Assembly (NCBI GenBank): GCA_017555685.1
Contig: JAFZFW010000018.1
Coordinates: 1-18,162 of the forward strand
Length of the DNA: 18,162 nt
Source: Methanocorpusculum sp.
GTDB taxonomy: Archaea; Halobacteriota; Methanomicrobia; Methanomicrobiales; Methanocorpusculaceae
Direction of reading: 5' to 3'
Shown here: in pieces, positions 9,383-18,162 of the stretch
How the letters are laid out: the number at the start of each line of letters is the position of its first letter
Position numbering within the stretch: position 1 is the first letter of the stretch
Program-made: the position numbers and the translations under genes
The notes under the pieces: generated by a model
Databases searched by the model: none
Told to the model about the DNA's origin: nothing
The model's input: the letters and a program-made list of their open reading frames with translations, nothing else

Positions 9383-9988
9383 ATGACGAAAATGGTAGCG
9401 GCTATCCTCGGCAGCAATATTCTTGGAGGAAATACCGATAAACTCCTGAAGGAAGCAATACGGGGCGTAGAGGATGCGGGTTGTACTGTTGAAAGAATCA
9501 ACGCTGCCCACATCAATGTTCACGCCTGCATGCAGACATTCGGCTGCATGTTCGAACCCCGGTGCGCAATCGAGGACGGTTTTGATAAATACTTCAATAT
9601 CTTAAAGAAAGCCGACGGCGTAATCGTTGCATCTCCAGTGATGACCTACGGAGTGCCCGGAGCACTAAAATCGTTTATCGACCGGTGTCAGCCGTTTTAT
9701 ATGGCAAAATACTACCGAAAGCAGCCGTTTATCAAGCCGGACCATGCAAAAATCCGCAAAATGCTCTTCATCTGCATCGGAGGTATGGACAAAGACGATA
9801 TCTTTGTCGGCCCTACACTGACCATGAAGGCATTCTCCGACATCATCGATGCAAAATACTCTGATGAGCTTCTGCAAAATGACATGGATACCATCGGAAA
9901 CATCGAGAAGAAGCCGGAGGTATTAGCTGCCGCATACGAGAAAGGATTTGCTCTTGGAAAAGGAATCGTCGATGCACGTCAGGAGTGA
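9383..9988 (+). CDS. NAD(P)H-dependent FMN reductase / iron-sulfur flavoprotein-like protein
   Basis: From ATG 9383 the product has 201 residues. The flavodoxin-like FMN loop is GSNILGGNTDKLLKEA (10-25), and SPVMTYGVPGALKSFIDR (84-101) is the second flavin and dimer contact region typical of this family. Between them lies a Cys segment, C49-x5-C55-x5-C61-x3-D. Iron-sulfur flavoproteins of methanogens have C-x2-C-x2-C-x4-7-C. Here the second Cys is Thr52, so only three ligands remain and a standard [4Fe-4S] cluster would need an outside ligand. The family passes electrons from ferredoxin or NAD(P)H to small acceptors. The gene overlaps the alkylation-repair gene by 17 nt. A longer reading frame opens at 9317, but its first 22 residues precede the TATA box. 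Confidence 0.86.
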   Translation: MTKMVAAILGSNILGGNTDKLLKEAIRGVEDAGCTVERINAAHINVHACMQTFGCMFEPRCAIEDGFDKYFNILKKADGVIVASPVMTYGVPGALKSFIDRCQPFYMAKYYRKQPFIKPDHAKIRKMLFICIGGMDKDDIFVGPTLTMKAFSDIIDAKYSDELLQNDMDTIGNIEKKPEVLAAAYEKGFALGKGIVDARQE

Positions 9989-10649
9989 GTTGGAAAAACT
10001 CGCTGAGCCCAAGTATCAGAAGTTCTCCTCCTCCCTGCTCCCGGGTGTGGAAAACATTTTAGGAGTCAGAATCCCGAAGCTCCGGGTGCTTGCAAAGCAG
10101 ATTGCCAAAGAGAACTGGAAGGAATTCTTAGAGGATGCAAAAGACGATTCCTTCGAAGAGATTCTGCTCCAAGGTCTGGTTATCGGCTATGCAAAGGCAA
10201 GCACGACAGAAATTATCACTGCACTTGATGCCTTTGTCCCGAAAATCGATAACTGGTCGGTCTGCGACAGCACGGCAATGAGCCTCAAAGCCGCAAAGAA
10301 CCATCCGGCATACTTTGGCTACGCGAAAGCATGCCTCGCGGAGGGAACAGAGTTTTCTGTCCGCTTCGGGCTTGTACTGCTGACGGCGCATTTCGTATCC
10401 GATGAGTATATCGACGCGGTGTTAGAGATTCTTGAAAACACCAGACTTTCGGGCTACTATGCAAAGATGGCGTGTGCGTGGGCGGTCTCGGAATGCTATG
10501 TGAAGTATCCGGAAAAGACCGAACGCTGGCTTGCTGCGGCAAAACTGGATGACTGGACGCTGAACAAATCCATTCAGAAGATAAAAGAGTCTTTGCGGGT
10601 GAGTGCTGAGGATAAAGAGCGGCTTGACGGGATGAAGCGGAGAGAGTAA
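9972..10649 (+). CDS. AlkD-like DNA alkylation repair protein (HEAT-like repeats)
   Basis: The 225-residue product matches the COG4912 type of DNA alkylation repair protein throughout: YQKFSSSLLPG (15-25), GVRIPKLRVLAKQI (31-44), DNWSVCDS (93-100) with Trp95 and Asp99, RFGLVLL (131-137), YYAKMACAWA (162-171), and WTLNKSIQKIKESLRVS (195-211). These correspond to the catalytic Trp/Asp and Arg positions of AlkD, which removes positively charged N3- or N7-alkylated bases without flipping them. The start ATG 9972 is chosen because it has an AAGGA element upstream and begins the conserved domain; a TTG 24 nt further upstream is less likely. It overlaps the flavoprotein gene by 17 nt and so is probably co-transcribed. 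Its stop abuts the stop of the convergent gene. Confidence 0.88.
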   Translation: MHVRSELEKLAEPKYQKFSSSLLPGVENILGVRIPKLRVLAKQIAKENWKEFLEDAKDDSFEEILLQGLVIGYAKASTTEIITALDAFVPKIDNWSVCDSTAMSLKAAKNHPAYFGYAKACLAEGTEFSVRFGLVLLTAHFVSDEYIDAVLEILENTRLSGYYAKMACAWAVSECYVKYPEKTERWLAAAKLDDWTLNKSIQKIKESLRVSAEDKERLDGMKRRE

Positions 10650-15677: not shown

Positions 15678-15995
15678 TTAGAGAGAATCCAGGGAAACAC
15701 CAAGGAAATCATCGGCGTTTGTGGACTCATTAATACCAAAGGCGGAAAATGCCGCGCGCGATTCCAGAGAATTGGCGGCTTCTGCGACATAATCCAGGAT
15801 ATCGATCGATAACTCACGCTTCGCCTTGCTCGCACGCATCTGCTCGACAAGGAAACGCATCGTCTCCGGAGATTCATTGCGCAGTTTGGCAAGAGAGATT
15901 ACACAGAGATATATTCTGGTGAGATTCCTGTCGGTACCGGTAACGGTATCGAAGAACGCCTTAATCACCTGTGCCTGGTAGACCTCACTTCCCAT
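15678..15995 (-). CDS. Small helical protein of unknown function
   Basis: I do not recognise this 105-residue protein. It is predicted to be all alpha: YQAQVIKAFFDTVTG (6-20), NLTRIYLCVISLAKL (24-38), PETMRFLVEQMRASKAKREL (43-62), and IDILDYVAEAANSLE (64-78), with an acidic tail (AFGINESTNADDFLGVSLDSL). There is no signal peptide, membrane helix, Cys motif or DNA-binding signature; the two-residue-charge pattern suggests a small helical bundle or dimer. The ATG is preceded by a TATA-like AGATATATTAGG centred about 32 bp upstream, so it probably has its own leaderless transcript. It lies between the YchF-type GTPase and AGCS genes on the same strand, with independent-looking promoters on both sides. 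Codon use is like its neighbours, which supports a real gene. Confidence 0.75.
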   Translation of the reverse strand: MGSEVYQAQVIKAFFDTVTGTDRNLTRIYLCVISLAKLRNESPETMRFLVEQMRASKAKRELSIDILDYVAEAANSLESRAAFSAFGINESTNADDFLGVSLDSL

Positions 15996-16038: not shown

Positions 16039-17214
16039 TTACTTTGCGGTACTGACAATCTTGATGACATCTCCGGTCTTGAGCTCAGCAGAATCCTTAA
16101 TCCGCATCTTGCTCTTGGCATCGACTGCATAGAGGAAGCCGTTTCCTATGTCGGTGTGGATACGGAATGCAAGGTCACGCGGGGTAGTTCCTTTCGGAAG
16201 AAGGAGTGCATCCGGCAGTACGACGCCTTTTGCATTGCAGTATTTTCCTTCGTCTTCTACCGGATAGACGATAATCATACCAAGCTCATCGAAGACCACA
16301 CGGTTTAAGGTCTCCTGAACACCGGTGTTTCCGAGCTTTTTCATGTTCTCGGCAATCATGGTAAGTGCCTTTACCTGCGGAGCAGAGAGTTTTGCACCCT
16401 CAACCGGTGCAAAGGAGGAGTCCCCCGGTAAGTACTGTAAGAGCTTTGCAGAGGCAGCAGACTTTAAAGCGAGTTCACCTGCAGCAATCGTCGGGACTGC
16501 ACCAAGCCCTTTTAATGCTTCGAGGTTTTCTTCGGATGCCTGGTCTGCTTTGTTTGCAGCGATAATCATCGGCTTGGATACGCGAAGAAGAACTGCGGCA
16601 AGTTCTGCGACTTCCGCTTCAGTTGCCTTTGCAAGATTGATGCCGCACTCGTCAACTGCTTCACGAATCTCAACCGGGCTGATACGAAGACCGGCTAAAG
16701 CCCCGCCGAGCAGATCGATTAAGACCGGTTCTCTGTTCTGTGCCTGGCGAACCAGACGCGGAAGGTGCTTCTGGATGATGCCTGCCATCCACATGGCAAA
16801 CTCGTATCTGAGGAACTCAACATCCTCTTTCGGGTTTCTGGTGCCGATGTCAACCGGGTTTCCTTCTGCATCGGTACTGCCGGATGCATCTACAACCTGG
16901 ATGATAGCATCTGCCTCACGGAGATTGTCTAAGAACTGGTTTCCAAGACCGCGGCCTAAGTGTGCGTCCGGGACAAGACCGGCGACATCTAAGAGTTCGA
17001 CCGGCGTGAAGCGGATTCCGTCAACACACTGCGTACAGGTGTCAGAAACACCTAACTCTTTGCACGGGCAGGGGGAACGCACATAGGCAACGCCTTTGTT
17101 TGCATCAATCGTCGTGAACGGGTAGTTGGCGATTTCAACGTTTGCAAGGGTTAATGACTTGAAGAACGTTGATTTGCCGCAGTTTGGTTTTCCGGCGAGG
17201 GCGATAAGTAACAT
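16039..17214 (-). CDS. YchF/Obg-like P-loop NTPase, archaeal type with Cys-rich insert
   Basis: The 391-residue protein has the P-loop GKPNCGKS (8-15), the switch region YPFTTIDANKG (31-41), DVAGL (76-80) as G3, NKAD (221-224) as G4, and a C-terminal TGS domain (about 330-391: LPDALLLPKGTTPRDLAFRIHTDIG). The order matches the YchF (OLA1-like) group, which binds ribosomes and acts in translation or stress control. The canonical NKxD at G4 differs from the NxxE of ATP-preferring bacterial YchF, so GTP may be preferred here (inference). Between switch I and G3 there is a CPC-x8-CTQC insert (Cys49, Cys51, Cys60, Cys63), which looks like a metal site and occurs in the archaeal branch as I remember it. 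A weak AGGAT lies before the ATG. The upstream 108 bp contain a possible TATA at 17289-17297. Confidence 0.92.
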   Translation of the reverse strand: MLLIALAGKPNCGKSTFFKSLTLANVEIANYPFTTIDANKGVAYVRSPCPCKELGVSDTCTQCVDGIRFTPVELLDVAGLVPDAHLGRGLGNQFLDNLREADAIIQVVDASGSTDAEGNPVDIGTRNPKEDVEFLRYEFAMWMAGIIQKHLPRLVRQAQNREPVLIDLLGGALAGLRISPVEIREAVDECGINLAKATEAEVAELAAVLLRVSKPMIIAANKADQASEENLEALKGLGAVPTIAAGELALKSAASAKLLQYLPGDSSFAPVEGAKLSAPQVKALTMIAENMKKLGNTGVQETLNRVVFDELGMIIVYPVEDEGKYCNAKGVVLPDALLLPKGTTPRDLAFRIHTDIGNGFLYAVDAKSKMRIKDSAELKTGDVIKIVSTAK

Positions 17215-17322: not shown

Positions 17323-18162
17323 TCACGCCGGATAGTGGTAGGAGACAACGCCTCCTTCCTCTACCGCGTTTGCATATGCGAAGACATTCTCCTCAATCAC
17401 TGTGCGGTCAACAGAAGAGGAGAGCTCTTTTGCAAAGAATGCTGCCGCATCTTCAGGGATAATACAGCGCGATGAAGACATAGTGCAGGTGTCCAGAAGT
17501 CCGGAGGCGGCAGTTTTGATTACTGCACGGTCAACCATCGGAACAAGCGCCGGCTCCATAATATCATAGATGCAGGCACCCGGTTTTTCATGCAGAGAAC
17601 CTTTGTTCAGATCAAGACCTGCACCAACACAGGCTGCAGCGGTTGTTGCGTAGAGAACTGCATATCCGCGGGAGAATAAGACATTGACTGCATCCGGCGA
17701 AGCTCCTTCTACCCGGCGGGCATAACCAAGCGCTCTTGGTACAACGCGGGAGAGAATCTCATAGTACATGTTCTTCGTAAGCGAGTAGCCGCGGGTCAGC
17801 TCAGGCAGAGTAATCAGATACTCAAACTCGGAACGTGCATGAGTTAAAAGCTCGAACTCACCCTGATAGAATAAGTCAGGCCGGGAAGCAGAAAGCTCAT
17901 GCAAAAACCGCATGCGGGCATCCGCTGCCGCTTCTGCTGCGGCAAGCGCAAAGGCATGTTTTGGAACAGCATCCTGCGCGGAGGAAAGACGCGGCTTTTC
18001 GGAGCGGAAAAGCGAACCTTCCGGCTTTCCGTGAATATCAAAGAAAGAGACAGGAATCTCCCGCTTCGCACACTGCGAAATGACAGAAGTATGCAGAAGA
18101 TTATCCCCTGCAATCAGCAGATGCGAAACATCAGACAACGCATAGCGCTCTGCTTCCCGCAT
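17323..18162 (-). CDS. cas1: Cas1-family protein outside a visible CRISPR locus; N-terminus beyond window
   Basis: The 280 codons seen (279 residues plus stop) begin inside the family's N-terminal beta domain: SHLLIAGDNLLHTSVISQC is the usual second-strand block (about residue 45 of a full protein), so the first ATG in view is probably internal. The helical domain is clear: DAVNVLFSRGYAVLYA (157-172), AGLDLNKGSLHEKPG (181-195) with the catalytic His191, and YDIMEPALVPMVDRAVI (199-215) with Asp200 and Glu203. The first catalytic Glu, normally in an EGxxxRxY-like stretch, aligns to Tyr126 in GYSLTKNMYYEIL (125-137), so it seems lost. Cas1 integrates spacers with Cas2, or transposon ends in casposons. 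Neither cas2, another cas gene, nor repeats appear within this window. A stand-alone Cas1 is therefore the working call. Confidence 0.83.
   Translation of the reverse strand: MREAERYALSDVSHLLIAGDNLLHTSVISQCAKREIPVSFFDIHGKPEGSLFRSEKPRLSSAQDAVPKHAFALAAAEAAADARMRFLHELSASRPDLFYQGEFELLTHARSEFEYLITLPELTRGYSLTKNMYYEILSRVVPRALGYARRVEGASPDAVNVLFSRGYAVLYATTAAACVGAGLDLNKGSLHEKPGACIYDIMEPALVPMVDRAVIKTAASGLLDTCTMSSSRCIIPEDAAAFFAKELSSSVDRTVIEENVFAYANAVEEGGVVSYHYPA

Follow-up and report, generated by a model that had tools for sequence, protein, structure and literature searches.

What is a Cas1 homologue that seems to lack its first catalytic glutamate doing in the genome of a methanogen? The question is raised by a gene at the right end of the 18,162-base stretch of Methanocorpusculum sp. 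DNA analysed here (the window), which is the entire contig C135 of a genome assembled in 168 contigs and 69% complete. The original prediction had proposed a stand-alone, domesticated Cas1 that binds DNA without integrating it. We find that the gene belongs to Cas1-solo group 1, a family carried by nearly all genomes of the order Methanomicrobiales, and from sequence comparison we consider it fairly probable that its product is a catalytically dead, vertically inherited core protein, a scaffold of Cas1 fold that presents a new invariant surface and has a housekeeping role independent of CRISPR (clustered regularly interspaced short palindromic repeats).

The Pfam Cas_Cas1 and TIGR00287 profiles match the 17323-18162 open reading frame (ORF) at 95.8 bits (cut-off 22.3) and 81.6 bits (cut-off 71.7), respectively, which bears out its reading as a Cas1 homologue. 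The ATG seen in the window is internal and not the true start, as the gene runs off the contig. Contig C85, which overlaps the end of C135 by 193 nucleotides with 2 mismatches, supplies the first 28 residues, from a GTG 28 codons upstream of that ATG with a GGAGG lying before it. The full-length form is the database protein P0001 (307 residues, 99% identical to the window protein), and window residue numbers are P0001 numbers minus 28. The reading frame of the relative L085 is likewise full length.

The metal site Glu-His-Asp/Glu of the Cas1 of CRISPR adaptation is incomplete in the window protein. In the family profile alignment, the aromatic residue of the family falls on the catalytic Glu of the Thermotoga Cas1 (4xtk), ungapped up to the conserved Tyr, and in a phmmer alignment the Tyr-Ser of full-length P0001 falls on the Glu-Gly of the casposase 6opm. 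The phmmer alignment with Archaeoglobus 4n06 disagrees by one residue, a one-residue gap placing Ser127 (155 in P0001) on the Glu. Whichever alignment is taken, neither Tyr126 nor Ser127 is a Glu; the absence of the first catalytic Glu is thus upheld, and His191, Asp200 and Glu203 are present, as had been noted. As a reference we fetched 50 ordinary Cas1 loci of the order, of which 19 were left after removing those at least 70% alike; they were drawn from the Pfam matches listed, with many high-ranking ones among them, and so lean towards typical Cas1. The Glu and His columns are Glu and His in 19 of these 19, and the residue after the Glu is Gly in 18. Among the 218 distinct sequences of the family (counted after dropping the window's own pieces L001, L002, L003 and L028, the ordinary Cas1s P0070 and P0071, and the fragments P0040, P0113 and P0115), the Glu column holds Phe in 65, His in 58, Ser in 37, Tyr in 31, Glu in 17, Ala in 4, Gln in 3, Asp in 2 and one other. 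The His column holds His in 83, Tyr in 59, Asn in 24, Phe in 23 and others, being non-His in 135 (five of them gaps). In conservation these columns rank 197th and 183rd, respectively, among 307 positions, and 217 of the 218 sequences lack the Glu or the His. The proposed two-residue active site describes the window member but is too narrow for the family, in which loss of the His is as common as loss of the Glu.

All 33 genomes of its family (33 of 33) carry the gene, which is found also in 194 of 199 of the order sample and in 217 of 232 of the class (133 of the 135 high-quality ones), for which reason the homologue is not a chance one. It is nearly always single copy: the second matches listed in the order sample score like ordinary Cas1 or come from a split gene, the exception being G162, with two copies at 286-288 bits. 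Full-length members from the order score 196-508 bits in the profile search, and the 8 genomes that match outside the order in the phylum sample (n = 392) reach 75-101 bits, as ordinary Cas1 does. A signature pattern had 132 matches among 84,980 species genomes, and all 132 are relatives; among the matches listed (80 of the 132) all are titled as Methanomicrobiales or Euryarchaeota archaeon. The family is thus found only in Methanomicrobiales, has an incomplete catalytic set and bears no sign of horizontal transfer, its place being conserved and its tree running broadly by family, although this tree came from a short search, has many weak forks, does not recover family f6 as one group and places the long-branched L088 among f2.

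These are the published features of Cas1-solo group 1, the subject of Makarova 2013 (cited through PMC4046053 and PMC9939771) and described in Krupovic 2014 (PMC4046053) as exclusive to Methanomicrobiales, vertically inherited without evidence of horizontal transfer, not associated with CRISPR, and with no member holding the full catalytic set. Because these features were tested and found in the gene's family, and nothing excludes membership, the window gene belongs to this group, which is the stand-alone Cas1 group of methanogens that the original prediction had pointed to. In the literature searched, with subscription papers mostly outside it, no paper on the function of the group was found. 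The casposase (Cas1-solo group 2, 6opm) is different: casposon Cas1 retains all four catalytic residues and has polB as a neighbour (PMC4046053), whereas the window gene does neither, having Tyr126 at the Glu place and no polB family in a Pfam scan of 23 further window and C85 proteins. A casposon remnant is rejected because no polB occurs among these scanned proteins. A decaying pseudogene is also rejected, by the retention of the gene across the class and by the ratio of nonsynonymous to synonymous substitutions (dN/dS; pairs 70-98.5% identical, dS 0.05-1.2, including the same genomes under two locus identifiers).

What the family has kept lies elsewhere in the protein. E130, R152, Y161, Y162, E163, R167 and D239 (P0001 numbers) are each present in 218 of 218 sequences. 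In the 19 ordinary Cas1s, Y161 and D239 are equally fixed, E163 and R167 are found once each and Y162 three times. The Glu and His columns being variable and E130, R152, E163, R167 and others invariant, one site has been released and another residue set fixed. According to helix angles, residues 149, 152, 156, 160 and 163 of helix 147-165 lie on the face opposite to 154, 158 and 161, and R167 sits just beyond the end of this helix. The presence of a copy in nearly every sequenced methanogen of the order suggests that the protein probably has an everyday job unrelated to immunity. By its sequence it keeps the whole predicted Cas1 fold, has lost the metal-dependent site for strand transfer and has acquired the new invariant set (E102, R124, Y134, E135 and R139, window numbering). 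We propose that it binds or serves as a scaffold without cutting, probably still as a dimer, and may hold a partner through the putative new surface in a housekeeping process with no need for Cas2 or spacer acquisition. The most far-reaching reading, to which we give somewhat less than even odds, is that the Cas1 fold has here been turned into a true housekeeping protein of a whole archaeal order. A new invariant site of Glu, Arg and Tyr residues, opposite the dead integrase site, would then bind some cellular partner or ligand and not prespacer DNA, serving neither immunity nor transposition. A dead integrase as a core gene of a methanogen order suggests that components of adaptive immune systems can be recruited into the everyday machinery of the cell.

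Several observations weigh against this reading as a scaffold. The loss of catalytic activity is deduced from sequence, and of the named Methanospirillum members most retain the Glu (Asp in one) and have lost the His and the third ligand. One lineage, L090 (7969-8895; probably identical to L132, a metagenome-assembled genome from Lac Pavin), keeps Glu, His, Asp and Glu, with the Gly absent; the published statement that no member has the full set needs this one exception. The invariant residues could be internal salt bridges rather than an exposed patch. The solo proteins also share with the ordinary CRISPR Cas1s of the order, besides the common fold, the conserved Q91, Y161, R178, N188, D228 and D239, and differ from them in the lost Glu, Gly and often His, in the fixed E130, R152, E163 and R167, in net charge and in having no adjoining Cas2. 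With these kept residues, and with positions 16, 111, 152, 167, 177 and 260 basic in 93-100% of solo proteins, some DNA handling may persist.

This leads to the main alternative, the idea of the original prediction, that the protein binds DNA without cutting it, a Cas1 dimer recognising branched or bent DNA in repair, replication or chromosome structure; we regard it as a serious but rather unlikely explanation. DNA-bound integrases are among the closest solved folds, 99% of the family retain Arg178, and the genome holds an RNase HII gene (on C85) and an AlkD-like gene (9948-10649), neither adjacent. The charge of the family points the other way. Solo proteins have a median net charge of -5 and isoelectric point of 6.2, versus +5 and 8.9 for the 19 ordinary Cas1s (Mann-Whitney test, p = 2e-8, kinship ignored); P0001 itself stands at -6, but within the genus some relatives come close to neutrality. 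Eight positions are basic in at least 75% of ordinary Cas1s; at five of them (101, 107, 222, 268 and 269) solo proteins are mostly non-basic. Net acidity and the lost basic positions disfavour plain DNA binding, but not binding via specific arginines, and the DNA-binding claim is thus weakened, with the six newly basic positions still in its favour. Haloferax Cas1 is reported (PMC9051519) to act in DNA repair, but to need its active site for this, so a dead Cas1 could not supply a repair role in the same way. Moreover, the conserved direct neighbours are genes for acylphosphatase and, in the family, archaemetzincin, and not repair genes.

It is far less likely that the protein regulates CRISPR adaptation by joining true Cas1 or Cas2 in mixed complexes that are inactive. 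The solo protein has the fold of ordinary Cas1 and many genomes carry both, but in 30 near-complete genomes (at least 95%) of 17 genera the solo gene is the sole PF01867 match, and none of the 30 has a PF09827 Cas2 match; where a further Cas1 is present, 27 of 30 genomes have one. Since PF09827 matched in 7 of 14 named control genomes, and not in E. coli at the threshold, a Cas2 of another family could be missed in this comparison. A Cas2 profile built from these genomes themselves detected Cas2 next to ordinary cas1 at 50 of 52 loci, and a Cas2-like ORF in 0 of 42 solo contexts; nor did any of the 42 hold a second Cas1. In the window and C85 we found no Cas2-like ORF and no 22-mer repeated at 40-100 bases, so the locus has neither the linked cas2 nor the repeats of CRISPR adaptation, and no PF09827 match was found in the source genome as far as it is complete. 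The extension past the contig end, on C85, brought no cas gene, and the descriptions of the gene as stand-alone and domesticated both survive. Databases call the solo proteins "CRISPR-associated endonuclease Cas1", so a tally based on cas1 would ascribe CRISPR adaptation to methanogens in which it may be absent, among them those of the 30 solo-only genomes. Least probable of all, and very unlikely, is a still-active nuclease or integrase with another metal ligand such as Glu121 (149), since, for all that Glu121 is kept in 208 of 218 sequences and Asp200 is Asp or Glu in every one, 4xtk and 6opm have a Glu there beside the catalytic Glu, a position five residues along the helix points some 140 degrees away, and the His column is mostly non-His.

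The genes around solo cas1 (Table 1) pointed to no particular process. Outside Methanocorpusculum, an acylphosphatase gene is convergent with solo cas1 in three sets of loci that overlap in genomes (33 of 35, 5 of 5 and 68 of 68). The archaemetzincin-like gene is directly upstream in 24 of 24 Methanocorpusculum loci, in 5 of 5 of the sister genus and in 0 of 35 elsewhere. Clustering of the 40 wider contexts gave ten representatives that were named, and the contexts were tested for second Cas1 and Cas2-like ORFs. Common neighbours in the order are genes for acylphosphatase, a repeat-like protein of about 1200 residues, phosphomannomutase, a MobB/MoaE protein, DUF5806 and acyl-CoA ligase.

Table 1. 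Coordinates of the solo cas1 gene, its key codons and its neighbours (window positions unless a contig is named; P0001 residue numbers in parentheses; relatives are the 218 family sequences).
Feature	Position	Strand	Remark
Cas1-solo group 1 gene	17323..18162	-	279 residues, 29-307 of the full protein; start on contig C85
Tyr126 (154)	17785..17787	-	at the catalytic Glu place of ordinary Cas1; three alignments
His191 (219)	17590..17592	-	catalytic His column; kept here, lost in many relatives
Asp200 (228)	17563..17565	-	first acid column; Asp in 191, Glu in 27 of 218
Glu203 (231)	17554..17556	-	third metal-ligand column; Glu or Asp in 190/218 (Glu 151, Asp 39; then Asn 13 and others)
Glu102 (130)	17857..17859	-	218/218 relatives vs 5/19 ordinary Cas1s
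Arg124 (152)	17791..17793	-	218/218 relatives; ordinary Cas1s Gly in 16/19, never Arg
Tyr133-Tyr134-Glu135 and Arg139 (161-163, 167)	17746..17766	-	invariant YYExxxR signature
YchF-related GTPase gene	16039..17214	-	co-directional neighbour downstream; within 400 bases in 17/24 short loci of the genus
Archaemetzincin-like gene (PF07998)	L003 271-1074 (contig C85)	same as solo cas1	upstream; its end overlaps the cas1 start by 7 bases

The remaining genes of the window and of C85 serve metabolism, transport and translation. The DNA alkylation repair enzyme-like gene (PF08713) lies about 7 kb from solo cas1, and the RNase HII gene is not adjacent to it. The protein of about 1200 residues (L072 4157-7771 and relatives), which has no clear Pfam family and a weak repeat match below the cut-off, is often encoded two genes downstream of solo cas1 in the order, in 17 of 35 wide contexts. 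An ORF of 105 residues in the window (15678-15995), without a Pfam match, also follows YchF in one relative, L098.
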